Part shown: positions 34,377-59,619 of the stretch, piece after piece
Layout of the letters: each line of letters starts with the position of its first letter
Numbering within the stretch: position 1 is the stretch's first letter
Source of the DNA: Clostridia bacterium
Lineage (GTDB): Bacteria > Bacillota > Clostridia > Oscillospirales > CAG-272
Length of the DNA: 59,820 bases
Reading direction: 5' to 3'
NCBI GenBank assembly: GCA_017938205.1
Contig: JAGBCA010000042.1
Span: forward strand, 1-59,820
Notes under the pieces: model-generated
What the model was told of the DNA's origin: nothing
Databases searched by the model: none
What the model saw: the letters and a program-made list of their open reading frames with translations, nothing else
Program-made: the position numbers and the translations under genes

Positions 34377-34964
34377 ATGAAAATCAAACTTTTCAGCACC
34401 TTCATTGCACTTGCATTGCTTGTAACCGTTGGCGGCGTATACGCAGCATGGGTATACGGTCAGGATGCATCCGGCGTGAGCAAGGAATTTGAGCTTACGT
34501 CTGCAAACACGATCGTTGTTCAGACCGGTGGCGCCGTAGGTGAGCTCACGATCACGGCGAGCAACCCTAAGATCACGGTCAAGGAATCCGGCACTCAGTA
34601 CATCCCTGCGCTGGAAACCTCCGGCAGCTTTGACGTAAAGTTTGTACCGAGCCCTTCCGCGAGCGTAGCATATCTTGATGAGACCAAGGTGAAGCTGGAC
34701 GTTACGATCACGCTTCCCGCAGGAACGGCATACGAGGCAGCCACCACAAGCTTCCAGCTGACCAAGGACACCTTGGGCTATGATAAGAGCGGCACGGCGG
34801 AAGCACCTGTTTACACCTGGACGGGTGTGAATCTTGATGGCTTCGGTCTTTCGTTTGTTAGCGAATGGGAAGATCCGATCATGAGATACGAGGATTACCA
34901 GACCTTTACCACTGCAGCGAGCAAGGTTGGTAAGATCACCGTATCCCTGGTTCCTGCAGCCTGA
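34377..34964 (+). CDS. secreted protein with SipW-type signal peptide, substrate 1
   Basis: A 195-residue exported protein. The N-terminal hydrophobic segment ends in GGVYAAWVYG, the small-residue plus aromatic pattern of SipW-dependent signal peptides (TasA: FAYFSD). The mature part is acidic and rich in Thr, Val and Ser, probably an all-beta fold; it has no cysteine. It carries no LPXTG or other wall-anchor motif. AGGAGG precedes the start. A stable hairpin follows the stop, then the signal peptidase gene. I infer a fibre or matrix subunit processed by the neighbouring peptidase. Confidence 0.75.
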   Translation: MKIKLFSTFIALALLVTVGGVYAAWVYGQDASGVSKEFELTSANTIVVQTGGAVGELTITASNPKITVKESGTQYIPALETSGSFDVKFVPSPSASVAYLDETKVKLDVTITLPAGTAYEAATTSFQLTKDTLGYDKSGTAEAPVYTWTGVNLDGFGLSFVSEWEDPIMRYEDYQTFTTAASKVGKITVSLVPAA

Positions 34965-34979
34965 TTTTTTTGGATAAAA

Positions 34980-35013
34980 GGATTTGCCGGGATCGCTTTT
35001 GATCCCGGCAAAG
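34980..35013 (+). promoter_or_regulatory. intercistronic hairpin after substrate 1 gene
   Basis: TTTGCCGGGATC pairs with GATCCCGGCAAA around a 6-nt loop. No T-run follows, so it is probably not a full terminator. It may protect the upstream message or lower expression of the peptidase relative to its substrate. Confidence 0.6.
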
Positions 35014-35032
35014 AAATTGGAAAAGAGCGAGA

Positions 35033-36811
35033 ATGAGTAAGTTAGACGTTTACGTATTATTCCTTTGTATCACTGTGTTTGCGATCTTCACGGTGCTCTT
35101 CAGCATCATGATCACGTACATACTGCGCTCCTCCGTGCGGCTGATCCGCGTGGGCGCAGAGGATGCAATGGTGCAAAAGGAAGGCGAAAAAATGAAAAAG
35201 CATCCCTACGGAGAGCGTTCTGCTCTCGGCAGGATTTTTTCTATCGCCCTTTGCGTGATCCTGACCGTCATTTTCGCCTTTTCCATTTTTCTTTCCTGCA
35301 CGGAAGACCGCTATAAGGATTCTCTTTCCACGCTGAAGGTGGTAAAAACCTCCTCCATGGAAAGGCGAAATCCCCTGAACAAATATCTGGAGGCAAACGG
35401 TCTTGATAACCAGATCGGAACCTTCGACCTGATCGTCACCCATCCTCTGCCGGGAGAGATGGAGCTTGAGCTCTACGACATCGTTGTATACGAGGTGGAC
35501 GGTATGCTGATCATTCACCGTATCGTTGAGATCGAGGAGCCAAACGCAAAGCACCCCGGCATAAGACATTTCAAACTGCAGGGAGACTCCATCAGTGCGC
35601 CGGACCGTTATCCGGTGCTCTATGAGCAGATGCGCGCGATATACCGTGATGAGCGCGTGCCCTTTGTTGGCAGCTTGATCGCCTTCCTGCAGTCTCCCGC
35701 AGGTTGGCTTTGTATCCTGCTTGCATTTTTCGTTATCATCATCACTCCCATTGCCGAGAAAAAGCTCGGAAAGGAGATCCTCGCACGCTATGAGATCCTG
35801 CTTAACGCCCCTGCAGAAGAGGTAAGTGAGCCGAAGGAGCGTATCGTAGAGGTAGAAAAGGAAAAGATCGTCGAGATCGAGAAGGAAAAGATCGTGGAGC
35901 GCTTGCATATCAAGTGCGCTCCGGTATACGTTACCCGCAAGGAGCCTGATGTGACGGTTTCGCGTGCGCCGCTCGTGGTCGAGCCGGTAGAAAGCCTCGT
36001 GAAGCTGCACGTGCATTATCCCCCTGCCGAAAGCGGCGAGGGAAAAACCGTTCCCAAATACGTGGGTATGAATATCGCAGGCAAGAACGCGGTATACCGC
36101 GCTTCCCGTCCTGCACCCAAGGAAGAAATTAAAGTAGAAAATAAAGAAGAAGTAAATATAGAAGCGCAAGCCCCGGTAGAGGACACGCAGGCACGTGAAA
36201 GAGCCGAGCAGCTTCGCCGCACGCTTGCAGAAAAAAGAGCCGAGCTCCGCACCGCACAGCCCGAGGCAGAAGCCGTTTCTGTGGCTGAACAGATGTTAGA
36301 GGAGACGCTCGTTCCTGTCGCCGTTGTCGCGGCTGAGGAGGTCCTGCCGATCGCACCTGCAGAGGAGACCGCTCCGTCAGAGGCTGTTCTTCCCGAAGCG
36401 GAGGAAGAGGAGGAGATCCTCGTGGATCGCTTTGGCCATATCCGCTCCCGCAGCTTTGCCGAAAAGCGCGAGATGCTCTCGGATAAGATGCGTGCGCGCT
36501 ATGAGGCCGTAGACGCGCATATCGAAGCCTATAAGCCCATCCGCGTAACGGAGGGCAAGAAATACCGTACCTATAAGAGCGGCCGTGCGCCGATCGCTAA
36601 AATGGCCATCCGCGGAAAAACGCTTTCCGTATATCTGCCCTTGGATCCCAAGGAATATGAGGAATCCAAATACGTCTTTACGGACGAGGGCGAAAGTGCC
36701 GCCTTTGAAAAATATCCGATGCGCCTGCGCCTCTCCTCGGAGCGTCAGACGCGCTGGGCTAAGGAGCTTGTGGACGAGGTCGCAAGCCGCGAGGAGCTCA
36801 AAAAGAAATAA
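35033..36811 (+). CDS. SipW/ER-type signal peptidase I with a 350-residue cytosolic tail
   Basis: A 592-residue protein. Membrane segments lie at about residues 6-30, 68-90 and 224-242. The S26B catalytic pattern lies between the second and third: Ser108 in KTSSM, His162 in IIHRIV (the SipW/archaeal/ER type, His in place of Lys), and Asp185 and Asp191 in LQGDSISAPDRYP. Residues 260-460 form charged heptad-like repeats (VEKEKIVEIEKEKIVE). The last 120 residues form a basic domain (KSGRAPIAKMAIRGKTLSVYLPLDPKEY) like one I recall at the end of other Clostridia proteins. Common SipW has about 190 residues, so the tail is exceptional. It lies between two proteins with matching signal peptides. Confidence 0.85.
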   Translation: MSKLDVYVLFLCITVFAIFTVLFSIMITYILRSSVRLIRVGAEDAMVQKEGEKMKKHPYGERSALGRIFSIALCVILTVIFAFSIFLSCTEDRYKDSLSTLKVVKTSSMERRNPLNKYLEANGLDNQIGTFDLIVTHPLPGEMELELYDIVVYEVDGMLIIHRIVEIEEPNAKHPGIRHFKLQGDSISAPDRYPVLYEQMRAIYRDERVPFVGSLIAFLQSPAGWLCILLAFFVIIITPIAEKKLGKEILARYEILLNAPAEEVSEPKERIVEVEKEKIVEIEKEKIVERLHIKCAPVYVTRKEPDVTVSRAPLVVEPVESLVKLHVHYPPAESGEGKTVPKYVGMNIAGKNAVYRASRPAPKEEIKVENKEEVNIEAQAPVEDTQARERAEQLRRTLAEKRAELRTAQPEAEAVSVAEQMLEETLVPVAVVAAEEVLPIAPAEETAPSEAVLPEAEEEEEILVDRFGHIRSRSFAEKREMLSDKMRARYEAVDAHIEAYKPIRVTEGKKYRTYKSGRAPIAKMAIRGKTLSVYLPLDPKEYEESKYVFTDEGESAAFEKYPMRLRLSSERQTRWAKELVDEVASREELKKK

Positions 36812-36841
36812 TTAGAAAGAAAAACGAAAGGAGGAGCGGTA

Positions 36842-37825
36842 ATGGGTATTTTAAAAATCAGATGGCTTTTGCCGACGCTTCTTTTGGTCGTTTCTCTTTC
36901 GGTGGGGAGCTTGTATGCAGCGTGGTCGTATCCCACGAATGAAGACATATGGAAAGACGAAAGTATTTTGCTCCACAATGAATATTCCTGGAAGGAAATT
37001 TCCTCCGAGCAGGCCGGCATTTCGCACCGTCTGCAGATGATCCTGAACAACGAGATCGATGAGCCCGTTACGATCAACGGCGTTGCCTATACGGATTCGG
37101 ACGATGCGCTGATGGCCGCCTTTGATTACGCCTCCTCAAATAAAAGCAACAGCTGGTGGGGCGGCGGCGGTGTGATCACGCTTCACGACTCCTCTTATAT
37201 CGGAACGATGCAGCCCACCGGCTCGAACGCAAATACCGGTGACGTGGAAGCGGTGAGAACGCTGTTCGGTGAGTCGCTGAATTCCGAGCTGGAGACCAAT
37301 CAGCACTATTCGCTGATGATCAAGCGCGAGAATCTGGACGGAAGTACAAGCACGGGCATGGCCTTCTATAAGGAAAGCAACTATGGATATGGTGGCGGTA
37401 TGCAGCAGGGTGCAGAGATCGCTCTGTTCTCCACGGTGAAGCCTCTGACGAGCGCAGGAGCATCGGTAGAGGTCGTCGTTACCGTCTTTGCCGCTACGAT
37501 CAAAACAGATGAAAACGGCAATTACATCCAGAAAAAGGATGAAAACGGCAATCTTCTTTATCTTAAGACCAACGATGTCGGAACCACTACCACGAGAACG
37601 AATTATCCTGCCTACGAATACACCTGGGAAAACGTTTATGAAGACGGTTTGTTCGTCGGAACGGCTACGGTAAAGTCCTATGACGGCTCGAGCGGTACAG
37701 GCTCGTTTGATACGAGCACCTGGCGTTCCACCGAGGCGTACGGAACCGGAAGCAATAAGGTGAATGCAGGGGCAACGCTTACGCGCGTCGTTCAGGCGGT
37801 TCTTAAGAGCCAGGCAGCATCCTGA
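36842..37825 (+). CDS. secreted protein with SipW-type signal peptide, substrate 2
   Basis: A 327-residue exported protein. The signal peptide ends in SVGSLYAAWSYP, the same YAAWxY pattern as substrate 1. The mature part is rich in Gly, Ser, Thr and Tyr (SNYGYGGGMQQ, DGSSGTGSF) and contains a duplicated ENGN-type turn (KTDENGNYIQKKDENGNLLY). No cysteines and no wall-sorting motif are seen. AGGAGG lies 6 nt upstream of the start, about 30 nt after the peptidase gene. Last gene of the operon; a second matrix or fibre component is the likely role. Confidence 0.7.
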   Translation: MGILKIRWLLPTLLLVVSLSVGSLYAAWSYPTNEDIWKDESILLHNEYSWKEISSEQAGISHRLQMILNNEIDEPVTINGVAYTDSDDALMAAFDYASSNKSNSWWGGGGVITLHDSSYIGTMQPTGSNANTGDVEAVRTLFGESLNSELETNQHYSLMIKRENLDGSTSTGMAFYKESNYGYGGGMQQGAEIALFSTVKPLTSAGASVEVVVTVFAATIKTDENGNYIQKKDENGNLLYLKTNDVGTTTTRTNYPAYEYTWENVYEDGLFVGTATVKSYDGSSGTGSFDTSTWRSTEAYGTGSNKVNAGATLTRVVQAVLKSQAAS

Positions 37826-38594: not shown

Positions 38595-40112
38595 TCAGGC
38601 CTCGAGCGAAACGATAACGTCGCTATCCTCGGGAACGGTAATATTGCTGAGTCTCTTCTTAAGGGCGTTTGTCTTAATGCGGAAGGTGATGCCCATGATC
38701 TGAATGGCGATCAGAGGCGTAAGCGCAACAAGTGCAACCGCGCCGAAGGCATCCGTCATAATATTGCCGCCGAGCGTGGTGCAAGCGCCGATACAAAGCG
38801 GAAGCAGGAAGGTGGAAGTCATTGGTCCGCTGGCAACGCCACCGGAGTCAAACGCAATACCAACAAAGATCTTGGGAACAAGGCGCGACATTACGAGCGC
38901 AATGATATATGCGGGGATCACGATCCAAAGAATGGAGATCCCGGTGATCACGCGCAGCATTGCAAGGCCCACGGCAACGGAAACACCGACCTGCAGGCAG
39001 GCGTTCATCGAAGCGGCAGAGATCGTACCGTTCGTGATGGACTGCACCTGCTTGTTGAGAATCTGAATGGCAGGCTCGGCCTTAACGATAAAGTAACCGA
39101 TCAGCATACCGAGGGGGATCAAAAGCCATTTGTTCTGCACGGCAACCTCGCTGCCGAGCATCGTGCCGACCGGCGCAAAGCCAACGCTGACGCCGCAAAG
39201 GAAAAGCACGAGCCCCACGTATGTATAAATAAAACCGAAGATGCAACGCAAAAGCTGGCGCTTGTGATACCGCTTTGTCAGAAGCTGGAAAAGGAAAAAT
39301 ACGAAAACGATCGGGATAATGGAAATAAATACGTCAAGCGCATAATGCGGGATCTGCTGTGCGAAGGTGAGCACCACCTCGCGCATATCGGTGGGATTTG
39401 CAAGGATCTCCTCGGTCGTACCGGATGCACCCTCGCCCGAAAAAATGCCAAGCAGCATAACTGCCAAGATCGGACCCACGCTGGAGAGCGCAACAAGACC
39501 GAAGCTGTCGCTCGAAGCATCCTTGTCGGTACGGATGGAGGAGATACCAACGCCGAGTGCCATGATAAAGGGCACGGTGATCGGGCCGGTGGTAACGCCG
39601 CCGCTGTCGAAGGCAACGGCACGGAAGGTTTCGGGGATCACAAAGGCTAAGATCAGCATCACGCCGTAAAAGCCGATCAAAAGATACGAAAGATCAACCT
39701 TGAACATGATTCGGAGCACGGCAAGAGCAAGGAAAATGCCAACGCCGATGGCAACGGTGAGGATCAGAGTCCAGGTATCAACGGAGGGAACTTTGTCGGA
39801 AAGCACGCGCAGATCCGGCTCCGCAATGGTGATCAGCGTTCCGAGCAGGAGCGTTGCCGCGCCGATCAGGGCGATCTTCTTTGAGCGTGCCAGAGAAACG
39901 CCGATGCCCTCGCCGAGCGGACTCATGGACATCTCAGCACCCAGCTGAAACAGGCCCATACCGATGATCAGCATGACCGCACCGAAAAGGAACATCATCA
40001 TGTATCCCGTACCCATCGGTGCAAGAACGATCGATAGGATCAGCACGATCATTGTGATGGGAAGCACGGAGGAAAGAGACTCGTGCATCTTCGCTTTTAA
40101 ATTTGGATTCAT
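38595..40112 (-). CDS. DUF1538 family membrane protein (putative transporter)
   Basis: A 505-residue membrane protein built from two homologous halves. The block GxAFDSGGVxTGPxTxxFxxxLxIG occurs twice (once as AFDSGGVTTGPITVPF, once as AFDSGGVASGPMTSTF). This internal duplication and about twelve hydrophobic segments fit DUF1538. Inverted or parallel repeat transporters often have this layout. It is paired with a P-II-like gene, a combination I recall from other genomes. The transported substrate is unknown to me. GGAGG precedes the ATG at 40112. Confidence 0.88.
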   Translation of the reverse strand: MNPNLKAKMHESLSSVLPITMIVLILSIVLAPMGTGYMMMFLFGAVMLIIGMGLFQLGAEMSMSPLGEGIGVSLARSKKIALIGAATLLLGTLITIAEPDLRVLSDKVPSVDTWTLILTVAIGVGIFLALAVLRIMFKVDLSYLLIGFYGVMLILAFVIPETFRAVAFDSGGVTTGPITVPFIMALGVGISSIRTDKDASSDSFGLVALSSVGPILAVMLLGIFSGEGASGTTEEILANPTDMREVVLTFAQQIPHYALDVFISIIPIVFVFFLFQLLTKRYHKRQLLRCIFGFIYTYVGLVLFLCGVSVGFAPVGTMLGSEVAVQNKWLLIPLGMLIGYFIVKAEPAIQILNKQVQSITNGTISAASMNACLQVGVSVAVGLAMLRVITGISILWIVIPAYIIALVMSRLVPKIFVGIAFDSGGVASGPMTSTFLLPLCIGACTTLGGNIMTDAFGAVALVALTPLIAIQIMGITFRIKTNALKKRLSNITVPEDSDVIVSLEA

Positions 40113-41865: not shown

Positions 41866-41902
41866 CCGTCCTCGGACATTTCTGCCCGAGGACGGATTTT
41901 TT
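41866..41902. terminator. terminator of the giant surface-protein gene
   Basis: CCGTCCTCGG (41866-41875) pairs with CCGAGGACGG (41886-41895), with T-rich flanks on both strands. Confidence 0.85.
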
Positions 41903-41937: not shown

Positions 41938-44900
41938 TTAAGGATTTACATACGTACCGATCAAGTCAATGATCTGCTCGTAAGTAACAACGCCTCTGCC
42001 AACGAGAACCTTGAGGTAAGGACCGTTGAAAGCAATGAACTGCTCGTACGTTACGTACTGTGCGAAGTCCTCGTAAGCATACAGACCGTATTTTTCAATG
42101 TCAGCCTGCATCTTTGCCTCGTCGTACTTCATACCCTCGCCGATCTCGAAGTAGTCGAACCAGCCTTCGTAGTGAGGAATGGTGAGAGAGAACATACCTT
42201 CAACCATAAAGTTGTTGTGCATTGCGCTCTGGATCGAGTAGCAACCTGTGTATTCCTCTGTCATCTCATAACCGATCAATTCTACTGCAACGGTATTCAT
42301 TCCATCAACTTTTGTAAAATGATGTCCGATAAATTCCGCAACGTTGTCTGCTGTGATAAACACGAACTGATCCTGTTCAACATCGTAGAATCCGTGGTTG
42401 TTGATAACCTTAACTACAGTACCGTCGGAGAATTTAAGGTTGAGAACGTCGTAGTTTGCATCGCCGTGATAGAAGATGATCGCGGAAGAAACTGCATCAT
42501 AAGTGCCGGTGAAGAAATTCCAAACGAGAAGCTGATCCTCATACGATACTTGATCAATTCTCTTTTGCGTTCCATCTGCCAACATTACAAGCGTATCGCC
42601 GGTAACGCAGCTCTTATCGGGGAAGGTAAATGTAACACCGGTGTTGTTGGAAATCGTTTTTCCGTTGGTTCCCTTGAAGGAATAAGAGGTGACCGTCCAG
42701 GTGCCGCCGGTTGCAGACTTGCTTGCAACCTTTGCTGAAGATTTAATGGTACCGTCGTTTGCGTAGGTGATTTCCTTTGAAGAACCGGGGGCGTTCAATG
42801 ATGGTTTACCAAGAACGATAGTCAGTATGCGTCCATCGTTATAGGTAACAGTAATTGTAGTAGTCCCCGCAAAAGCGCTGGAGGACGATGCATAAACAAT
42901 GTTCGTTGAAGCAATATTGGTAGTCAGATTTACGGTTCCTTCGGCATCGGTAATGGTGATTGCATCCAATGGGTTGAATTTATAGGATCTATCGCCAAAA
43001 CTCTCATTGTATCCGCCATCTATAGCGGTTTTGTCTACCGTTATAACTGCGTCCTTGATCGTGGGTTCTGCAACGACAACGCTCAACGGCACTTCATATG
43101 TTCTCGTTACACTCTTTTCAACCTTTGCACCATCAGGTGCATAAAATTCATTGTCTTCCACGGTAAAGATGAGGGTATAACTGCCGGTGGCATTGAATGT
43201 AATAACACCATTTGTCACAACAATATTACCATTTACATCTTTACATACAGCAGTTACAGTATAATCCACACCTGCATACTTGTAAACCTTCATAAGATTG
43301 GTTATATCAAGCCTGATCGGTGTTTCGCCTTGCATATAACGCACCTCAACGCCGTTAATATCGCCTTTGAGGTATCGATCCTCGCCGGATACGGCTTGAT
43401 CACCAAGGCTAAACTCGGGTGTTGGCAGATAATCGCCCTGCACACCGGATTTGTGGGGATCATTTTCTTCGGAGTAAGCGTTATTCACAGTGCCAACGGT
43501 ATTAAGCTGAGTATATACAAAGCCTTTGATATTATTGATGGTTACACTCTGGCCCTCATACCCTGTATTTACATTGTCTGTAATACTGCTTCCATCGAAA
43601 TTGGGTGTCATGGAAACAATTCCTGCATTTACATAACGATTAGGTTCTGTACCAAAGTGATACATACTGCAAGACGAACCGAACATTGCATCATAGAGTG
43701 CTTTTGCGTAGGTATCGGTGGGAGCATTTGCCTCGCTGATAAAATTATACTGCGTAAGCGTTCCATTTAAAACAAGCTTAGCGGTTTCTGTTGCATCCGA
43801 ATGCACAACGATTCCCAAACCAACAAGATCGCGACCGTCATCAAAATTTGCGGTGGTTACGTTTTCCAAAGTAACGGTACCGGATTGAATTATGAGGTTA
43901 GCAACGGTGCCGCCGTAAAGGGTGGTGTCGATAATTGTTGCATCGGCTCTGGTTTTGATGGGGGCGGCACAATTGGCAATATAGCAATTCTGTATTACCG
44001 TCGGACCCTGTACATCGATTGCTGTATTGTAGTAATCGTTATCCTTATATGCGCCAAATCCTTTATAAACATCACCAACAATTACAAGGTTGTCGAGTGT
44101 TGCGTTTTGGGTGATAATAATACCGTGTCCATTCGATTTATTATACGTTGTCGGTGCGCCGTTGAGAGAATAAGTAAATCCGTTTCCGTAAAGCGTGCAA
44201 TTCCAGTAGTTTACATAGCCGGAGGTGCTGATATCGCAAAGAAGCACAAAGTTTTCTCCGGTTATTGTTCCTTTTGCAGAAGTGAGGTTTGTTGCCTCCA
44301 CGACCTCAACCGTCAGCGTCTTTGCGGTGGTAAATGCATTGCTGTCGATCGTGATCTGTGCAACGCCCGTGCCGGTGAACTTGATCGTTCCTGCATCCCA
44401 AGCAGCGTTTGCAGTGTAAGCTCCGGTAACGTTCCTGGATACAGCGTTGAAAGCAACGGTTGCAGTCGCTCCGGTGGGAAGCGTAGCACCAAACAGGCTC
44501 GAAAGCGCGATTGCGTTGCCATTTCCAACGCGGTAGAGATAATCATTTACGTTGGGGAATTTGATCTCGAAAAGATCCTGCTCTGCGGGATCCGCAATTT
44601 TTACCGTAGCGGTAGCAATGTTGCAGTAATCCTCGTCCGTGATCGTGATCACCGCGATTCCGTTGTCTACGAAGGTCAGCGTGGATTTGGTCCAATCGCT
44701 TGCATCCTTGGTATACTCACCGTTATCAATCGTAACCACAACGTTTGCGCTGTTGATGGAAACGCCGTCCACAGGAGTGAAAATATCACCGAGCGTCGTG
44801 GAAATCGTATCGCCCTCAAGCGTGTGATAGAATGTAAGATCATCCTTTGCGGCAAACTTATCCACTGCGGGATGGTCGGTGACCGTCAGAGCCGCAACGG

Positions 44901-47655
44901 CTTCCTTGCAGTACGTGTAGTCGGTGATAACGATCTTCGCGGCACCAATACCGTCAAAGGTGAGAGTGCCTTGCGTCCAATCGCTGCCGTTCGGTACGTA
45001 TACCGCAGAAACGGTGCTTTCGTTGCCTATGGGAGAAACGAATACCTTCAGATTGTTCTTGTTAATGTCTGCAATACCGGTTGCTGCAAAGATTTCACCA
45101 AGGGTAAGCGTGGTTTCGGTTTCGATGCTCGTATCCTCAAGCACAACCTCAAACTTATCCAAGGAGTTCGCGATCTCTCTGTCAAGAATGGTAATTCCGT
45201 CAAAGGCGTATTCCTCGCCGTTATAAACGGGAACATGCTTCACGCCCCATCCGTCACCTTGGAAAAGCTGGTTAAACGGAAGATAAACGACCTGCTTATC
45301 CTCCTTGAGAACGGTCTTGCCGTTCACGGTCTCTTCACCCGCATCCTCGTGGAGGTGGCGGACAAGAGCACCGTCCTTGCTCACGATGTGGTAGCACTCA
45401 CCCGCAAGGAGGAAGTTTCCGGTTTTGGTCCACGCTTCGCCGCTCTTGATCTCGCTAAGGCTGTCGATCACGGTCAAGCGGCTGAACTGGTGATCGTGCG
45501 TATAGGATGCAAGAGAGTTTGCAACCAGCTCGCAGTAATAGTAGTCGTTCCAGTCGCCGAAATGCACGGTGCAGCCCTCTGCCGTGATGCCCGTCATGTC
45601 GGGAACGGTGTAGCCCTGTGCATCCGTGGTGTTTCTGCCGCGAAGCGAGCCGATCACCATACCTGCGTATCTGTACCAATAATACTGATAGTTACCGCAA
45701 ACGTCGTTGTAAACGTCGATCTGCGCCGCAACGTGGCAGTTTGTAAACTTAACTTCACTATATCCGCGGAACATACCCATAAGTCCGCCGCAGGCAACGT
45801 CCCATGAGCCCCAAAGCGCGGAGATCTTGTTGGAGTTGTCAACGGTGATGTTCGTGAAGGTCATTTTCTTCTCGGAGGTGTCCGCGGAGTTGCCGCCAAC
45901 GCCAACGATACCGCCGTTTCCTGTGTTGTAAACCCTGGGGTTGCAGTTCGTGATGGCGATGTTCTCAAAGCTTGCGTTCTCGGCATACGCCGCGATCACA
46001 CCCGTGGGCGTGAATTCACCGTCGGAGGAGAAATTATCAACGGTCAGATTCTTAACGGTACCGTCAACCACGTAGCCAAAAAGGCCGAATCCGTCGCTGT
46101 AGTGGTTTGATCCGGCAGGATAGCCGTTGTTGTAGTCGCCCTTGATCTCCCAGGTGTTCTGATAGAAGTTTGCGATCGTGTTTCCGTTTCCGTCAAACGT
46201 ACCCTCGAAGGAATAAATCGTGCTGTAAACGTCATCCTCCACGCCGTCCTCGTTTTTATCCAGCGTGAAATAGTATCCGATGGGATGGAAAATGGTATAA
46301 TCGTGATTTTCAACGCCGTAGCCAAGGTTGATATCGGCAACGAGCTTCACAAATTTTCCGTCAAAGCTATCGCGCGTATATCCGCCCATACCGCCAACAA
46401 CCTTGCCAAAATATGCAAGCTGGTCTGCGTTTGCGATCAGATAGGGATTTTCCTCCGTGCCGTCACCGCCGGCAAAGTCGGTCGCAACGCTGCCGTTCCA
46501 AGCATTCTCAGTATCGGCAACGATCGCCACCTCGGAGAAGGTCGCCATAGAGAGAATAACGTCGCCGGTTGCGGGATCGTAAACGAATTCGTTGTGTGCA
46601 TCCAGCTCTGCAAGGCTTGCAACGCGCGTCATAGCAACGCGAATGCCGCCCTCCACGTGATACAGCGTAAAGTTGCCAAGGTTGAGTCCCGGCATCATCG
46701 CCTGCTTGATGGTGATCCGAATCGGCACGGTGTTCGTGGTTGCAACACCCTCAATATGTACGTCGAGAGAGCGAAGAATTTCTTTATCTGCAAGCGTAAT
46801 GTTTGCGCCGCTGCTTTCCATTTCGGAAACCGAGAAGGAAAGCTCGCCTGCCTGCTCTGTCAGCTGCACGTCTTCGGGAACCTCGGCAACGATCGTTTCG
46901 TCCGCATCCTTGATCACAACGTCGTTTGCAAGCTTGCCGTCAGCATCCGTGCTTACGCTCTCGGTAATGCTGCCGGGCAGGCGCAGAGCAGGGAAGCCAA
47001 CCTCCTTGTCAAAGTCCGAACCGAAGGAGTCGCCCTCCTCGTCCACCTGCGTTGCAACGAGGCGGAGTCCGAGATCGATCTTCGGGGTAGCCTCTCCCTT
47101 TTTCGCGTTGGCCTCGTTGCCAACGGATTCAGGAATATAAAGCACGAGTGCAACGTAGTCAGCCTCGTTCTTTGCAAGACGATCCACCTTGGTATAGCCC
47201 TCGCGCAGACCCTTCACGCCGGTTGCGGCGGTCTTGGCCTCACTTCTCGAAGCGTAGGGCGTCTGTACGTCGTCCACGCCGCCGATCTTAATAAAATCAG
47301 AAAGGCGGAAGGCAACGCCGTTTACGTTGATCGAGGCGGTTTCCTCCAAGATCTTAACGCTTAACAGATATTTCAGCGCAAGCGTGCCCGCATTGGTCAC
47401 ACGCAGATATACAACCTCGGTATATCCGGGCTCCCATTTTGCGTTTTTAAACACGTTCGTGTTTTCATCCACGGTTTTCCATGCGCCGCCATCCTTTCTG
47501 TATTCCAGCTCCACGTCAAGATTGCCGGCCTCGATGGTGTTGCGGTCGCTTGTCGCGCTGTCCGTAAACCAGGCCCAGGTCAATCCGAGAAGCATGGAAA
47601 AGCAGAGCAAAAGCGCAATCACGCTCATAAAAAGTGATCTTCCTGCGTTTCTCAA
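41938..47655 (-). CDS. giant SipW/TasA-type secreted protein with C-terminal Hint domain
   Basis: A 1905-residue protein. I chose TTG at 47655 because AGGAGGAAGAATT lies just upstream; it then begins MRNAGRSLFMSVIALLL. The signal segment ends in LTWAWFTDS and continues as a TasA/camelysin-like domain (IEAGNLDVELEY). Residues about 400-740 have GLUG-like repeats (GTFDGNGNTIANF, GLFGYV), followed by Ig-like modules (about 830-1150), a parallel beta-helix region (about 1150-1330) and more beta modules. From Cys1683 (SCVTGDTLVMLADG) a Hint domain follows, with block-B His1754 (INNHGF) and His1813-Asn1814. The C-terminal His-Asn of inteins is replaced (GMFSLT). An 80-residue helical tail ends the protein. 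Probably a surface matrix protein processed by the SipW-type peptidase. Confidence 0.8.
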   Translation of the reverse strand: MRNAGRSLFMSVIALLLCFSMLLGLTWAWFTDSATSDRNTIEAGNLDVELEYRKDGGAWKTVDENTNVFKNAKWEPGYTEVVYLRVTNAGTLALKYLLSVKILEETASINVNGVAFRLSDFIKIGGVDDVQTPYASRSEAKTAATGVKGLREGYTKVDRLAKNEADYVALVLYIPESVGNEANAKKGEATPKIDLGLRLVATQVDEEGDSFGSDFDKEVGFPALRLPGSITESVSTDADGKLANDVVIKDADETIVAEVPEDVQLTEQAGELSFSVSEMESSGANITLADKEILRSLDVHIEGVATTNTVPIRITIKQAMMPGLNLGNFTLYHVEGGIRVAMTRVASLAELDAHNEFVYDPATGDVILSMATFSEVAIVADTENAWNGSVATDFAGGDGTEENPYLIANADQLAYFGKVVGGMGGYTRDSFDGKFVKLVADINLGYGVENHDYTIFHPIGYYFTLDKNEDGVEDDVYSTIYSFEGTFDGNGNTIANFYQNTWEIKGDYNNGYPAGSNHYSDGFGLFGYVVDGTVKNLTVDNFSSDGEFTPTGVIAAYAENASFENIAITNCNPRVYNTGNGGIVGVGGNSADTSEKKMTFTNITVDNSNKISALWGSWDVACGGLMGMFRGYSEVKFTNCHVAAQIDVYNDVCGNYQYYWYRYAGMVIGSLRGRNTTDAQGYTVPDMTGITAEGCTVHFGDWNDYYYCELVANSLASYTHDHQFSRLTVIDSLSEIKSGEAWTKTGNFLLAGECYHIVSKDGALVRHLHEDAGEETVNGKTVLKEDKQVVYLPFNQLFQGDGWGVKHVPVYNGEEYAFDGITILDREIANSLDKFEVVLEDTSIETETTLTLGEIFAATGIADINKNNLKVFVSPIGNESTVSAVYVPNGSDWTQGTLTFDGIGAAKIVITDYTYCKEAVAALTVTDHPAVDKFAAKDDLTFYHTLEGDTISTTLGDIFTPVDGVSINSANVVVTIDNGEYTKDASDWTKSTLTFVDNGIAVITITDEDYCNIATATVKIADPAEQDLFEIKFPNVNDYLYRVGNGNAIALSSLFGATLPTGATATVAFNAVSRNVTGAYTANAAWDAGTIKFTGTGVAQITIDSNAFTTAKTLTVEVVEATNLTSAKGTITGENFVLLCDISTSGYVNYWNCTLYGNGFTYSLNGAPTTYNKSNGHGIIITQNATLDNLVIVGDVYKGFGAYKDNDYYNTAIDVQGPTVIQNCYIANCAAPIKTRADATIIDTTLYGGTVANLIIQSGTVTLENVTTANFDDGRDLVGLGIVVHSDATETAKLVLNGTLTQYNFISEANAPTDTYAKALYDAMFGSSCSMYHFGTEPNRYVNAGIVSMTPNFDGSSITDNVNTGYEGQSVTINNIKGFVYTQLNTVGTVNNAYSEENDPHKSGVQGDYLPTPEFSLGDQAVSGEDRYLKGDINGVEVRYMQGETPIRLDITNLMKVYKYAGVDYTVTAVCKDVNGNIVVTNGVITFNATGSYTLIFTVEDNEFYAPDGAKVEKSVTRTYEVPLSVVVAEPTIKDAVITVDKTAIDGGYNESFGDRSYKFNPLDAITITDAEGTVNLTTNIASTNIVYASSSSAFAGTTTITVTYNDGRILTIVLGKPSLNAPGSSKEITYANDGTIKSSAKVASKSATGGTWTVTSYSFKGTNGKTISNNTGVTFTFPDKSCVTGDTLVMLADGTQKRIDQVSYEDQLLVWNFFTGTYDAVSSAIIFYHGDANYDVLNLKFSDGTVVKVINNHGFYDVEQDQFVFITADNVAEFIGHHFTKVDGMNTVAVELIGYEMTEEYTGCYSIQSAMHNNFMVEGMFSLTIPHYEGWFDYFEIGEGMKYDEAKMQADIEKYGLYAYEDFAQYVTYEQFIAFNGPYLKVLVGRGVVTYEQIIDLIGTYVNP

Positions 47656-47723
47656 AATTCTTCCTCCTGAAAATTCTTTTTTATATATTTTTTTGTTTTT
47701 ACCGTAAAGCAAATGCCCAAACA

Positions 47724-47834: not shown

Positions 47835-49550
47835 TTACTCGCCAACTACGGGAGCAGAAGCCTCGAAAACGTGCGTGATAACTGCAGCATCGTGAGTATC
47901 GGCCTCGTTCTCGGGATTGGTGAGACGGAGCGTAACCGTGAAGGTAGCACCTGTAAGAGCATCGTCAACGTCGCTGACGCCGCAAAGGAACTCGCCAACG
48001 CTCTTAACTACCTGCTCGTAAGTCCAGGGGTTGTTGGTAACGCTGCCAAGAAGCGGAATCTCGGTGTCTGCAGGGAGCTCAAGATCGCCGTTGTGGAAGC
48101 CGATCCAACCGAAGGAGCCGTAGTTACCGCCAAGGAAGATCTCGTTTGCACCAAGATCACAGTCAAGCTTTACGTAGAAATCGCAGTACCAGTCTGCATA
48201 CGCGCTGGTGATAATGTTTGCGGCAGTGTGCGGAGCCTTGAAGGAGTAGATAACGTCAAGACAGGGATTTTCTTCAACTTCGGGGTTGGGGGACCACTGA
48301 CCGTAGCTGCCCCATTCGATCTCTTCATCGTAGGTGTCGGTAATATCGGTAACGATCGCCTCAGGCTTCGTGGTATCCGAGCCGGGAGTGGCGGGGCCAT
48401 CCTTATAAACAACCGTGTAAGGGCTGAAGGAATCGGTCTCGAAAATTACGTAACCGGACGTTTTATCGTAGGTAACCACATCGGAATTAAGAGCTACGCC
48501 CTCGTGATAAACAACGACGCTATTGAGCTCGGTGCCGGCCTCTGCGATCTTGATGTAAACCTTGATCATCTCGGTGTTGCCGTCCTTAAGGCCTTCCACC
48601 TCGATGTCATAGGACTTCGCGTTTTCGCCATCGTTGATCACGATATTTGCATCGATCTCATCGGTTTCTTCAACGGAGGTCTCGATCTTGGTAACACCGG
48701 CAGCAAGAGCGGCAGCAGGAATGTTGAAGGCAGCGATCTTTGCGTTGGTTGAATTGCTTCTTACCTCAACCTCGTAAGCAACTGCGGGAAGAGTGATCGT
48801 GTAAGAACCGGTTCCGGAGAAGTTAGGAAGCGTAGCGCCTGCATCATAGCCTTCATCGTCGAAGCTGTCCTTCTCGTCCTCGTCATTGAGCTGCGTTGCA
48901 GTGATGGAAACGCCGAGGTCGAGCGTGGGAGCGGCAGTGCCGGGCTTGGTGTTGGCAGCGTTGTCAACGTCGGTGGGCATCCAGAGAACAACAGCAACGT
49001 ACTTTTCGCTTACGTTACCTTCGCCTACGGGCTCAAGCTCTCCCTTAACGAGACCGTCCTCGTTGATATTGCCGATCAGAGACTCCTGCAGCGTCTTTGC
49101 ATCGGTGGTAGCAGCAATTGCGGCTGCACGGTCTGCAAAGTCGCCGGGCTTTTTATCCGCAACGATGTCAAACATAAGATAGTCGGAAAGCTTAAAGGTC
49201 TCATTCTTTACGTTGGTAGCGGCGGTCTCACCGTTCAGGTTTACTGCGAGAACGTACTTGAGAGCAAGCGTTCCGGCGTTGCTTGCCTTGAGGTAAACAA
49301 CCTCAGTGCGGCCGGGCTCCCATTTTGCGTCGGGATCGAAGATGTCACTTGCACCCTCAACGGTGGTCCATCCACCGTCCTTGTAATACTCGAGTTCAAC
49401 GTCCAGATTTCCTGCAACGATCTCATTGTTGTCACTGGTTACGGAATCGGTAAACCAAGCGTAGGTCGTGCCGATCAGCATGCAGAAACAGAGCATGAGT
49501 GCGAGTACGGAAAGGATGAATGCGTGTCTTGCGTGTCTGCTTTGATACAT
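47835..49550 (-). CDS. TasA/camelysin-like secreted protein with SipW-type signal peptide
   Basis: A 571-residue exported protein. The signal segment ends TTYAWFTDSVTS, and the following NNEIVAGNLDVELEYYKDGGW is the TasA/CotN start pattern, closely matching the N-terminus of the 1905-residue neighbour downstream. Residues about 60-230 continue the TasA-like domain (WEPGRTEVVYLKASNAGTLALKY). The rest is beta-rich and acidic, with two Asp/Thr-rich linkers (PATPGSDTTKPEA). No wall-sorting motif is seen. AAAGGAG precedes the ATG; promoter at 49635-49664 next to an A-tract. A major matrix fibre subunit is the likely role, matured by the SipW-type peptidase encoded 12 kb away. Confidence 0.82.
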   Translation of the reverse strand: MYQSRHARHAFILSVLALMLCFCMLIGTTYAWFTDSVTSDNNEIVAGNLDVELEYYKDGGWTTVEGASDIFDPDAKWEPGRTEVVYLKASNAGTLALKYVLAVNLNGETAATNVKNETFKLSDYLMFDIVADKKPGDFADRAAAIAATTDAKTLQESLIGNINEDGLVKGELEPVGEGNVSEKYVAVVLWMPTDVDNAANTKPGTAAPTLDLGVSITATQLNDEDEKDSFDDEGYDAGATLPNFSGTGSYTITLPAVAYEVEVRSNSTNAKIAAFNIPAAALAAGVTKIETSVEETDEIDANIVINDGENAKSYDIEVEGLKDGNTEMIKVYIKIAEAGTELNSVVVYHEGVALNSDVVTYDKTSGYVIFETDSFSPYTVVYKDGPATPGSDTTKPEAIVTDITDTYDEEIEWGSYGQWSPNPEVEENPCLDVIYSFKAPHTAANIITSAYADWYCDFYVKLDCDLGANEIFLGGNYGSFGWIGFHNGDLELPADTEIPLLGSVTNNPWTYEQVVKSVGEFLCGVSDVDDALTGATFTVTLRLTNPENEADTHDAAVITHVFEASAPVVGE

Positions 49551-49634
49551 TGTGTTTGTTCTCCTTTTATATTTTTTTATTGAACACAAAATCCGTGCTG
49601 CAGTATGAAAAAATTCCCAAATTACAGCAGTATA

Positions 49635-51057: not shown

Positions 51058-52743
51058 TTATTCTGCAGTCAGGCTCATAAATTCCTGAATGCTCGTGATT
51101 CCCTTGAAAACGAGATCCTTGCAGCAGCCGGCAAGCGGCGTCATGCCGTTTTCAATGGCAAGCTCGCGCAGCTTTTCGAGATTTCTCTCCACCAGAACCG
51201 CGTTTCTCATTTTTTCATTCATATACATCAGCTCGTGCACCGCAACACGGCCCTTATAGCCGGTGTTGTTGCAGAATTGGCAGCCCTGCGGCCGCGCAAT
51301 GCTCACGGGCTCGGCAATATCAAGGATCTCCATCTCGCGCGCATTGGTCTTGCCGCGCTTTTTGCAGGCGGGGCAAAGCTTTTTCACGAGTCTTTGCGCG
51401 ATCACGCCCACGAGCGCATCCGCAACGAGATAGTCCTTCACCTTCATGTCCTCAAGGCGCACGATCGCACCGGGGGCATCGTTGGTATGCAGGGTGCTGA
51501 AAACGATATGGCCCGTGATGGCGGAGCGCACCGCGATCTCCGCGGTCTCCTCGTCACGGATCTCACCGATCATGATAATATCGGGGTCCTGTCGAAGAAT
51601 GGAGCGCAGCGCCGTGGCAAAGGTCATATTTGCCTTCGGGTTCACCTGCGTTTGGTTGATGCCGGGCATGGAATACTCCACGGGGTCCTCGACCGTAACG
51701 ATATTCACAGAAGGATCGTTTACCTCCTTTAAGAAGGAATAGAGCGTGGTGGATTTACCGCATCCCGTGGGACCCGTCAGCAGAATAATGCCGTGCGGGT
51801 GAGCGAGCATCTTGTCAACGACCGCGTTCTCTTCATCGGTAAAGCCGAGGTCGGCACGCGTGAACTGGAAGGAGGTCTTGTCAAGAATACGGATAACGAA
51901 TTTTTCTCCGAAAACGGTTGGCAGCGTGGAAACACGGAAATCGTACTCCTTGTCGCCGATCGTCATATTGATACGGCCGTCCTGCGGAACGCGGCGCTCT
52001 GCAATGTTCAGCCCAGACATGATCTTAAGGCGCGCCGAGATGGCAGAATATGCCTCGATGGGGAACTCCGCGCGCTCCTGCAGATCGCCGTCCACGCGGT
52101 AGCGCACCTTCACCTTCTGCTCGAAGGGCTCAATGTGAATATCGCTGGCGCGGAAGGGGATCGCCTCCTTGATAATGGAGTCAACGAGTCGCACCGCAGG
52201 GTTATTGATCACGTCGTTTTCGGTGGAGAGCGTGGAATCTCCGCCGAGTGCCATGATCAGCTTGTCGGTTTTCTCGGAATTGAGGTCGTAAAGCGCGTTT
52301 TTCGTCGATTCCACCGCAGAGCGCGAATCGATATACCGATCGATCTGCGACGGCGGAACGAGCACGAAATCATATCTGCCGGGGATCTGCGTGGAGAGGG
52401 CGGAAAGGGCGTGCGCATCCAGCGGCTTTCCCGTCGCAACGGTAACAACGCCGTTTTTGTCCTCCCAGATGGGGATCACCTTGTGCTTCTTCATGAAATC
52501 GTAGGAGAAGAGCGAGAAAAGCTTCTCGTCAATATCCAGCATATCGATCTCCACGGAGGGCATACAGTAGTAAGCGGCGCGCGCCTCAAGCTCGGAGGTC
52601 TCGGTGATCGTCTCGCCGAGCAAAAGGTAATCTCTCGCGCCGATCTTTCTTGCCTCGCATTCTGCAAGAATATCCGGGATCTCTTTTCTTTTGATCAGCT
52701 TCTTGTAAGCGTAAAACTGCAAGAGCTCTTGATTTATATTCAT
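51058..52743 (-). CDS. type IV pilus extension ATPase, PilB/GspE family
   Basis: A 561-residue ATPase. It has an N-terminal MshEN-like domain (residues about 10-140), then the secretion ATPase core with Walker A GPTGCGKST, the Asp box around IVTVEDPVEY, Walker B DIIMIGEIRDEETAE and a His box HTNDAPGAI. The zinc cluster CPAC...CQFC near the C-terminus is typical of GspE/PilB rather than retraction ATPases. It powers pilin polymerisation at the inner face of the membrane. The start at 52743 has AAAGGAATCC upstream; a longer frame overlapping pilC has no ribosome site. Confidence 0.95.
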   Translation of the reverse strand: MNINQELLQFYAYKKLIKRKEIPDILAECEARKIGARDYLLLGETITETSELEARAAYYCMPSVEIDMLDIDEKLFSLFSYDFMKKHKVIPIWEDKNGVVTVATGKPLDAHALSALSTQIPGRYDFVLVPPSQIDRYIDSRSAVESTKNALYDLNSEKTDKLIMALGGDSTLSTENDVINNPAVRLVDSIIKEAIPFRASDIHIEPFEQKVKVRYRVDGDLQERAEFPIEAYSAISARLKIMSGLNIAERRVPQDGRINMTIGDKEYDFRVSTLPTVFGEKFVIRILDKTSFQFTRADLGFTDEENAVVDKMLAHPHGIILLTGPTGCGKSTTLYSFLKEVNDPSVNIVTVEDPVEYSMPGINQTQVNPKANMTFATALRSILRQDPDIIMIGEIRDEETAEIAVRSAITGHIVFSTLHTNDAPGAIVRLEDMKVKDYLVADALVGVIAQRLVKKLCPACKKRGKTNAREMEILDIAEPVSIARPQGCQFCNNTGYKGRVAVHELMYMNEKMRNAVLVERNLEKLRELAIENGMTPLAGCCKDLVFKGITSIQEFMSLTAE

Positions 52744-52774
52744 AGGATTCCTTTCTTCCGTAGCGGAGAGCGGC

Positions 52775-53983
52775 TTAAAATGCGCCCATAATAGAAAGCA
52801 TCGGAGAGTAAACGGCAATAAACATCGTGCCGACAACAACGCCCATGATCACGATCATGATCGGCTGGATCTTGGAGGAGAAGGAGTTGAAGGACTCCTC
52901 CAGCTGTGCGTTAAAGAAGGAGCAGGAGCGTGTCAGAACGTCGTCAAGTGAGTTGGTCTTTTCGCCGATGGTGATCATCTTGATCATCATGGAGGGAAAG
53001 ATATTGATGCTTTCAAAGGCGTTGGTCAGCGTCATGCCGTGCCGCACGTAATCTGTGGCCAGATGAAAGCGCTTTTTCATGTATCGGTTGGTAATAACGA
53101 CCTCTGCCGCCTCCATCGCGCCCGTCAGATCCATGCCGCTGGAGAGCAGAAGTGCAAACGCGCTTGCAAAGCGCGCGGTCACCGTGTTGATCTGTATCGT
53201 GCGAACGAGCGGCAGCTTGAACAGCAGAACGTCGAGGGTGTATTTTCCCTTTTCCGTGCGCAGGAAAAGAAAGATAATAATGCCGAGGATCAGCACGCAG
53301 GAGAGAAGCAGCTGCCACCATTCGGTAACGAAATCCGAAATATCGTACACGACCTTGGTGATCCCCTCGATAGGGACGTCCATATCCGCAAGTGCTTCCT
53401 TGAATTTCGGGATCACGAGCGTCAGCATGAGAATGGCAATGCCAACCGTCATAAGGATCAGCATGATCGGATACGCCATCGCGCCGCGAAGCTTCTGGCG
53501 CATCGCAGAGTCGCGCTCGTAATAATCGGCCAAGGAATTAAAAACAAGCTCCAGCCTTCCGCTCATCTCGCCAACGTAAACCATACTGCGGAAGAAATCG
53601 GGAAAGACCTTCGCGTGCTTCTTGAGCGCCTCGGAGAGCACAAGTCCGCTCTTCACGTCGTCGTAGATCACGTCGAGTATCTTTCGGAAATAGCCCGAAA
53701 ACGGCTGGTTTTTCAGTATATCCAAGCATTCCAGCAGAGGAATATGCGTCGTAAGCATGATGGCAAATTGACGGCAGAAGGTCGTCAGCTCGGAGAGCGG
53801 AACCTTACCCGTTCCGAGGGTGAAGAATGCCGAGGGGGTATTGCCGGAATAGATCTTTGCGGAAATGAGGTAAAGGCTCTGCTTTGCAAGCTGCTCGGCA
53901 AGATCCTTTTCATCCTTTGCAATAAACGTGCCCTTGATCTTCTTGTTTTGTAGGTTGGCCGCTATATATTTATATTTTTGCAA
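52775..53983 (-). CDS. type IV pilus inner membrane platform protein, PilC/GspF family
   Basis: A 402-residue membrane protein with two cytoplasmic GspF domains and three membrane helices (near residues 170, 220 and 380). Family blocks are LTTFCRQFAIMLTTHIPLLECLD and FASAFALLLSSGMDLTGAMEAA. It is the platform on which PilB assembles pilins. I read a TTG start (53981-53983), with AAAGGAG about 11 nt upstream; the reading frame then begins MQKYKYIAANLQNKK, which is normal for the family. Confidence 0.93.
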   Translation of the reverse strand: MQKYKYIAANLQNKKIKGTFIAKDEKDLAEQLAKQSLYLISAKIYSGNTPSAFFTLGTGKVPLSELTTFCRQFAIMLTTHIPLLECLDILKNQPFSGYFRKILDVIYDDVKSGLVLSEALKKHAKVFPDFFRSMVYVGEMSGRLELVFNSLADYYERDSAMRQKLRGAMAYPIMLILMTVGIAILMLTLVIPKFKEALADMDVPIEGITKVVYDISDFVTEWWQLLLSCVLILGIIIFLFLRTEKGKYTLDVLLFKLPLVRTIQINTVTARFASAFALLLSSGMDLTGAMEAAEVVITNRYMKKRFHLATDYVRHGMTLTNAFESINIFPSMMIKMITIGEKTNSLDDVLTRSCSFFNAQLEESFNSFSSKIQPIMIVIMGVVVGTMFIAVYSPMLSIMGAF

Positions 53984-58371: not shown

Positions 58372-59619
58372 TCAGAACTTAAACTTGCTGTCTGCGATAG
58401 CCTGAGCAGCAGATGCGCCGTCGCCGTCAACCTTAACAGCGGCCTCGTTGAAGGTGTTGCCGGTAAGAGTAATTGCAGAGCAGTTCAGAGCAGTCAGCGA
58501 CTCGTGGATACGAACTACGATGTCGGAGCACTCGAATACGTTGTTCTTTATGGTGATCGCGTCAGCGGTCAAGGAATGGATTGCCTTGCTGCCTGCAAAC
58601 TGGATGAAGGGTCTGTTCAAAGACTGATTGGTGCATACGAAGGTGTTGCCCTCAAATACGATGTCACCAAACTTGTTGCCGTTTGCAACAGTGCCTGCAC
58701 CACCGATAACGATACCGCGTCCGGAAGTGATGTAGCAGTTCTTGAAGGTTATGTCAGTTGCACCGTTCGTTTCGATAAATACGTTTGCATCATTCATGTT
58801 GATTACGCAGTTCTCGAATACGTAGCTATCAGCACCCTTGAAGGTTGCGGTTGCATTGTTGCTGCTTGCAGTAAAGTCGAGCGTGGTGTTCTTGAATACA
58901 ACAGCACCGGTAGATGTATAAGTCTTGTTCGAGGTGGAAGCGATTACGGCATCCTTAACCTCGCCGGTAATTGCGTTGTTAGCAGGAGCATAAACGGTCT
59001 TCTCTGCAACATCCGTTCCCTTGGTGAAGCTGGAGCCTGCTTTAACGGTACCGTTTACAAGCGTAACGTTTGCCTTGCCTGCAAGGCCGATATAACGGTT
59101 GTTCAGGTCAAGAGTGTACTGCTTCGTAGTGCCTGCAAATGCGCAGTCATCGCCGCCGAAGGTTGCATCATTGCTGATAGCGGAAAGAGCAACGTACTTC
59201 GTAACGGTCGTGATCACGTCAGCCTTGGAGTTGTTGAAGAAGCCCCAAAGGGTGTCAGCCTCAACGTCTGCGTTCTTCGGGAAGATAATAGCATCGTCCT
59301 CGTCGAGCAGATAGAACGTGTTGGTTTCAAGGCTGTAAGCATAGTGGTGATCCTTGGTAAATGCCTGGAGCTTACCTACGTTGTAGCCGTGCGCATAAAG
59401 TGCATTCACTGCGTCGCCAGCATAGTCAAATTCATCAAGAGACGCTTCCTCTGCAACGACCTTGTTCATGTTGGCGATCGCCTGCTGATCCTTGGAAAGG
59501 TTCGCCTTCTTAATAATACCGCTAAAGGTAGGGATCAGAACTGCGGCGAGGATTGCGATCACGGCGATAACAACCACAAGCTCAACAATCGTGAAACCCT
59601 TTTTGTTGGTTTTTCTCAT
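58372..59619 (-). CDS. type IV pilin with a large predicted parallel beta-helix domain
   Basis: A 415-residue prepilin, about three times the usual size. The N-terminus MRKTNKKG then FTIVELVVVIAVIAIL and Glu at +5 is nearly identical to that of the major pilin. After a linker domain (to about residue 150), at least six rungs of a parallel beta-helix follow, each of the type V/T-F-x-N/G-x-x-I/F (VFKNTTLDF, VFENCVINM, TFKNCYITS, VFEGNTFVC, TIKNNVFEC, TLTGNTF). Such folds occur in pectate lyases and adhesins; no catalytic residues are evident. AAGGAG precedes the start. It is transcribed separately from the pilus operon. An adhesive tip pilin is my inference. Confidence 0.85.
   Translation of the reverse strand: MRKTNKKGFTIVELVVVIAVIAILAAVLIPTFSGIIKKANLSKDQQAIANMNKVVAEEASLDEFDYAGDAVNALYAHGYNVGKLQAFTKDHHYAYSLETNTFYLLDEDDAIIFPKNADVEADTLWGFFNNSKADVITTVTKYVALSAISNDATFGGDDCAFAGTTKQYTLDLNNRYIGLAGKANVTLVNGTVKAGSSFTKGTDVAEKTVYAPANNAITGEVKDAVIASTSNKTYTSTGAVVFKNTTLDFTASSNNATATFKGADSYVFENCVINMNDANVFIETNGATDITFKNCYITSGRGIVIGGAGTVANGNKFGDIVFEGNTFVCTNQSLNRPFIQFAGSKAIHSLTADAITIKNNVFECSDIVVRIHESLTALNCSAITLTGNTFNEAAVKVDGDGASAAQAIADSKFKF

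Follow-up and report, generated by a model that had tools for sequence, protein, structure and literature searches.

The 59,820-nucleotide stretch of a Clostridia bacterium contig analysed here (JAGBCA010000042.1, positions 1 to 59,820; the window) carries a gene for a giant protein whose last 223 residues, starting with Cys1683, comprise a predicted Hint (hedgehog/intein) domain and a conserved helical tail. This module is a member of a real, portable Hint-plus-tail family with an architecture like that of Hog (Hint plus sterol or adduct recognition region), which is unnamed in the libraries and literature searched; no description of it was found in the open-licence literature, among the matches listed. 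A sequence-only reading of the gene had noticed a C-terminal Hint domain that has lost its terminal His-Asn, and proposed that the domain cuts the protein at Cys1683 and couples the N-terminal part to a surface acceptor. Judging by sequence, structural models and analogy, we give an about even chance to a Hog-like single-turnover module in bacteria, in which the tail would select an acceptor and a thioester formed at Cys1683 would be used to hand the N-terminal part of the protein over to it.

A whole-protein search of 295 genomes of the order located the module in 14 of them, including the window's own genome, where a second copy ends a 3086-codon frame. The 15 places found are 13 full modules (alignment A1) and two broken-looking copies that are not part of A1: L014 (G167:C100), in which no Cys is aligned to Cys1, and L015 (G076:C34), of which only the end of the Hint domain and the tail are left. 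In a phylum-wide sample of 398 genomes, the module was present in the window's own genome only. From a scan of a genome collection, the best 80 of 238 confirmed relatives, corresponding to 79 loci, were kept, and at least three of the 13 full modules recur among them. Most of these loci belong to metagenome assemblies that go by the name of Clostridia, Clostridiales or Oscillospiraceae, and gut or rumen sites appear in many titles; a few have other names, among them Corallococcus (L055) and Anaeroplasma (L092, L094). Nineteen loci came from viral contigs. Four of them (L095-L098), of two kinds, hold the whole module, one is cut (L099), three are distant (L107, L108, L110; 27% identity), and 11 match in Hint residues only, short of the tail. 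The main alignment combines the window protein, the 79 genome loci and the four whole viral modules, and its 84 rows include near-copies (80 are left at 95% identity); alignments A2 and A4 contain 68 and 77 of these rows, respectively. Conservation around DTLVMLADGT and ADIEKYGLYT is partly by construction, since the search patterns fix residues there. Cys1, His1754, residue 1730 and the end of the Hint domain lie outside the genome patterns, and Cys1 lies inside one of the two viral patterns.

The structure prediction that the sequence-only reading had suggested as a check returned a Hint fold, with the Hint domain and the tail as one compact unit. The best whole-domain match by sequence is BIL2, which also ties with several others for the best fold match. 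The window module falls under the cut-off of every curated Hint or intein family model scanned; at E <= 1, 38 of 68 modules match PF01079 (Hint; best E 7.7e-6) and three of 68 match PF07591, the model for the pretoxin HINT of polymorphic toxins (best E 1.2e-5). Eight columns of the main alignment are invariant: six hold Gly or Phe, and the other two are Cys1683 and His1754, which are also shared by all 13 full modules from the whole-protein search. The assignment of these two residues as Cys1 and the block B His is thereby upheld, and the loss of the terminal His-Asn, seen at first in a single protein, proves to be family-wide (0 of 84 aligned copies). Cleavage at Cys1683 is probable, judging by the conserved residues and the modelled fold. 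If no cutting took place, the Hint domain and the tail could be a rigid C-terminal cap, a chaperone or an oligomerisation unit, with structural roles for Cys1 and the His. The compact shape predicted for the module and the disappearance of the Thr of the TxxH motif (His-3) from all 84 rows, where Ile (58 rows) and Val (18) are common instead, would suit such a unit, but invariance limited to eight columns that include Cys1 and the block B His, and a Ser or Gly preceding Cys1 in 50 of the 84 rows, would not, and we regard it as improbable.

A further residue, His1730, occupies Hint position 48. It aligns without gaps from the domain start to H48 of BIL2, and continuing along the BIL2 alignment places the His of the block B column at 69 and the end of the domain at 142-143, matching the published numbering. 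His, Asp or Glu fills this position in most rows (Table 1). In BIL2, zinc is reported to be bound by H48 and H125 and to swing H69 toward Cys1 (PMC8616854). For hedgehog, C258, D303 and H329 are given as the zinc ligands, D303 is reported to act on the sterol as general base, and the D303H variant is described as active, with a wider substrate range (PMC9163320). A choice between Asp and His at position 48 would thus be expected of a Hint domain that activates an outside nucleophile; this argument, from sequence and analogy, is no more than suggestive.

Based on these residues, the following course of events can be proposed. The protein would be exported by means of its SipW-type signal peptide, which is predicted by family match. 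The bond between residue 1682 and Cys1683 would undergo an N-S acyl shift aided by His1754, as the fold and the full conservation of both residues suggest. Neither Asn cyclisation nor splicing would be expected to follow, because the terminal His-Asn is missing in all copies. The thioester would be attacked by an external nucleophile that the tail holds and His1730 activates, the analogues being cholesterol in hedgehog and lysine in BIL2. The N-terminal part would then leave, its C-terminal carboxyl bearing the acceptor, and the Hint domain and the tail would be discarded. Whether the acceptor would be something other than water is, by analogy, an evenly balanced matter.

The tail is the best conserved part of the module. 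When the window protein is compared with its relatives L016 and L017, identity is 82-84% in the tail, 67-73% in the Hint domain and 41-44% in the N-terminus, and the proportion of nonsynonymous differences (pN) reaches its minimum, 0.09-0.10, in the tail; the ratio of nonsynonymous to synonymous divergence (dN/dS) is not meaningful in the module because synonymous sites are saturated there. The helical tail noticed earlier behind the Hint domain is thus conserved, and is confidently predicted to fold on its own into four short helices. A tail profile run over the 295 genomes retrieved 14 genomes and 15 places, identical to the places of the module (two are the broken-looking copies). No noteworthy match of the tail was found in Pfam, PDB sequences or viral folds; DUF4284, described as immunity protein 22, gave three weak matches (best E 0.035). 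Since Hint domains adjoining C-terminal toxins are known (PMC3482391), the module might act in polymorphic-toxin style, with the Hint domain freeing the tail as an effector. However, the tails form one aligned family and are not polymorphic, any one Pfam toxin family matches at most three of the 77 tails at a threshold as loose as E 0.1, and C-terminal cleavage would have to proceed without its His-Asn. On this evidence from the tails and the Hint end, we consider it very improbable.

The main rival of acceptor transfer is self-release by hydrolysis. Water or a thiol would take the Cys1683 thioester, the tail would hold the precursor or time the cut, and the N-terminal part would be shed free. 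No acceptor is required, BIL domains lacking a +1 nucleophile are reported to give mainly cleaved products (PMC7664689), and simple release would suit enzymes, such as the subtilase carriers (three of 29), as well as signal-less phage copies. Left unexplained are the strong conservation of a specific folded tail and the choice of His, Asp or Glu at position 48, and hydrolysis alone appears to us rather unlikely. A special case of acceptor transfer, included in the chance given to it above, is modelled on BIL2, which according to its structure providers links a protein to a lysine via an isopeptide bond, a ubiquitin-like domain being joined (PMC8616854); this sets a precedent for Hint-driven conjugation. 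Attack by a protein lysine would yield an isopeptide-linked protein network. The standing of BIL2 among the sequence and fold matches favours it, but 76 of the 79 genome carriers have no acceptor domain behind the module, and the second zinc ligand of BIL2 is not retained. The chance of a lysine acceptor is, we believe, small.

To describe the proteins that end in the module, 29 carriers (the window protein, 26 genome loci and two viral loci) were scanned for domains. InlB-type repeats were found in nine, subtilase and camelysin in three each, and LRR_5, SLH, dockerin and cohesin in one each. A matrix protein, as the sequence-only reading called the window protein, therefore describes some carriers and not those with subtilase, InlB-type, LRR, cohesin or dockerin matches, and its tie of the module to TasA-type proteins does not hold for the family. 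A SipW-type signal is seen in 10 of 63 carriers and is not a trait of most. The 63 are carriers with a complete start, meaning only that an in-frame upstream stop codon is present, and both the SipW and the hydrophobicity counts rely on crude patterns. An N-terminal hydrophobic stretch is present in 59 of them, the exceptions being L028, L085 and L088 (under 330 residues) and L038. The carrier ends 15 or fewer residues after the tail in 76 of 79 cases; 83 residues follow it in L038, and 546 in L034 and L036.

The proposal of attachment without sortase fares unevenly. No LPxTG motif or hydrophobic 19-mer occurs within the last 60 residues of any of the 79 genome carriers, which thus show no other C-terminal anchor and do not resemble sortase substrates, and no sortase match was found in the host genome, itself 84% complete. 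Genomes that hold the module are not significantly poorer in sortase, though (8 of 15 module holders versus 209 of 280 other genomes; Fisher p 0.08). One of the 29 scanned carriers also has the SLH match. The idea of a purely surface acceptor does not fit the phage copies. Phage contigs of two kinds have the module at the end of a gene that immediately follows the terminase and portal genes, and the encoded proteins lack a signal peptide or N-terminal hydrophobic stretch. These copies make one wall polymer a less likely acceptor than a more general kind of molecule (a lipid, the amine of a protein, or a small amine or alcohol). Behind the phage module gene, past ca. position 10700 of L096, L097 and L098, an open frame runs to the end of the sequence (3328, 2457 and 2897 codons, respectively). 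A recurrent row of genes was also observed downstream of the carrier in L060, L073, L074, L076 and L089. In L076 it consists of an ABC ATPase, an ABC-2 type permease (weak match) and a 1115-residue protein that weakly matches Big_2, and the last two are present in all five.

Several observations weigh against acceptor transfer. The TxxH Thr, which is typical of inteins and hedgehog and was not treated as defining the Hint superfamily, is absent throughout, and the hedgehog T326A variant is reported to have strongly reduced activity (PMC9163320). The place that corresponds to D303 can be fixed only to within one or two residues of position 48: in hhalign (E 3e-4, probability 40%), hedgehog D46 (D303) falls opposite residue 1729, one off His1730, with middling confidence. 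H125 of BIL2 is read in the alignment as opposite a Ser (62 of 84 rows). The presence of the tail in all 84 rows is partly due to the retention of best-scoring relatives, and Hint matches without tail occur further off, in the 11 of 19 viral loci and, as weak matches, in G220 (the start of the domain, added by a profile search over the 295 genomes) and in G502 and G666 of the phylum-wide sample. The long extensions of L034 and L036 are also at odds with acceptor transfer, and the signal-less phage copies argue against a purely wall-specific acceptor. A wider view, which we consider somewhat less likely than not, is that bacteria and their phages own a hedgehog-type modification: a portable C-terminal Hint domain with an adduct-recognition tail might esterify or amidate the C-termini of many unrelated exported proteins, and so fix proteins to the surface with no need of sortase, a lipobox or an S-layer anchor.

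If cargo is transferred, the module would provide gut Clostridia with a one-protein means of attaching or capping proteins, a bacterial counterpart of hedgehog lipidation and a possible tool for C-terminal labelling, and its tail would represent a novel domain for recognition. If the thioester is only hydrolysed, the module would still be an unnamed self-processing unit common to many exported proteins. A shared ending of many otherwise different bacterial proteins and of two kinds of phage proteins may mark an unstudied trimming or attachment route.

The features of the gene are listed in Table 1. The TTG codon at 47655 was taken as the start on account of AGGAGG at 47663-47668, 7 nucleotides ahead; a mechanical open reading frame listing begins 24 codons upstream of this start, from which residues are numbered here. 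Both a SipW-type signal and a camelysin domain are recognized by the corresponding models. The giant protein is probably secreted, and its source bacterium is related to gut Clostridia.

Table 1. Features of the giant-protein gene and its C-terminal module (positions in the window).
Feature	Position	Strand	Basis
Giant-protein coding sequence, 1905 residues	41938..47655	-	TTG start, stop at 41938
Camelysin/TasA-like N-terminal stretch	47368..47637	-	PF12389, 22.5 bits, exactly at cut-off
SipW-type signal peptide region (LTWAWFTDS), predicted	47518..47616	-	TIGR04088, 27.5 bits versus cut-off 19
Hint domain, residues 1683-1825, predicted	42181..42609	-	alignment, sequence match, fold prediction
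Cys1683 (Hint Cys1), predicted N-S acyl shift nucleophile	42607..42609	-	84/84 copies; 13/13 full modules of whole-protein search
His1730 (Hint position 48), candidate general base or metal ligand	42466..42468	-	His 38, Asp 33, Glu 6 of 84 (77/84 together)
His1754 (block B His, Hint position 72)	42394..42396	-	84/84
His1813-Asn1814-Asn1815, block F	42211..42219	-	His1813 53/82; residue 1815 Asn 58 or Cys 22 of 84
Leu1824-Thr1825 at the place of the intein His-Asn (block G)	42181..42186	-	His at 1824 0/84, Asn at 1825 3/84
Conserved helical tail, residues 1830-1905, four helices	41941..42168	-	predicted local distance difference test (pLDDT) 93.7 folded alone; alignments A2, A4
Terminator-like stem, 13 pairs, 3' of the gene	41866..41895	-	consensus scan; site count of the region no higher than in its shuffles

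The product of the adjacent gene (47835-49589, minus strand), 584 residues long, shares the SipW-type signal and matches camelysin at 24 bits (cut-off 22.5). A BLAST cluster containing SipW-type neighbours, the members of which were not inspected singly, is present at 20 of 79 module loci. A SipW-like signal peptidase (34377-37825, plus strand; NF046067, E 5.8e-12, 45.6 bits, under the cut-off) has a C-terminal extension of ca. 350 residues, and is flanked by two small proteins without family match, whose starts were read as SipW-type (YAAWVYG and YAAWSYP). Genes for a T2SSE ATPase, T2SSF and an N_methyl (prepilin-type) protein, a type IV pilus-like set, lie at 51058-53983 and 58372-59619 (minus strand), near the two SipW-type proteins. 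A 505-residue protein (38595-40112, minus strand) matches the UmpA and UmpB antiporter models, one per half (173.9 and 141.3 bits, below the cut-offs), and is fusion-like.

Among the closest known systems, Hog has a plan like that of the module. Both have a Hint fold with Cys1 and the block B His but no His-Asn end, both continue into a specific region behind the Hint domain, and both sit at the C-terminus of exported proteins. The features by which Hog is described in PMC2362128, no His-Asn end and a recognition region right after the Hint domain, are found here, with recognition being a putative role of the tail. The module differs in lacking the TxxH Thr and in having bacterial and phage hosts, and its tail shows no relation to the sterol recognition region, although the two were not directly compared. 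BIL2, from the BUBL1 polyubiquitin locus of Tetrahymena, has a terminal His142-Asn143 followed by a ubiquitin-like domain, and its solved chain has no helical tail of this kind. BIL domains are bacterial Hint domains without a +1 nucleophile that keep the terminal His-Asn; compared with them (e.g., 2lwy of C. thermocellum), the module has no such end in any copy, and has a conserved tail. Inteins are marked by a C-terminal His-Asn and a +1 Cys, Ser or Thr with a C-extein; this His-Asn is missing from all 84 copies of the module. Pretoxin HINT (PT-HINT) domains likewise lie close to the C-terminus of large secreted proteins, but the module has a uniform tail and no variable toxin domain behind the Hint domain. 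Finally, Vint and a bacterial group of C-terminal Hint-like domains are described in PMC2362128 as being neither intein, Hog nor BIL, and some of these proteins may be secreted; by that description, the bacterial group (Stigmatella, Myxococcus, Reinekea, Photorhabdus, Serratia and Yersinia) is set apart from the module by two conserved upstream cysteines.
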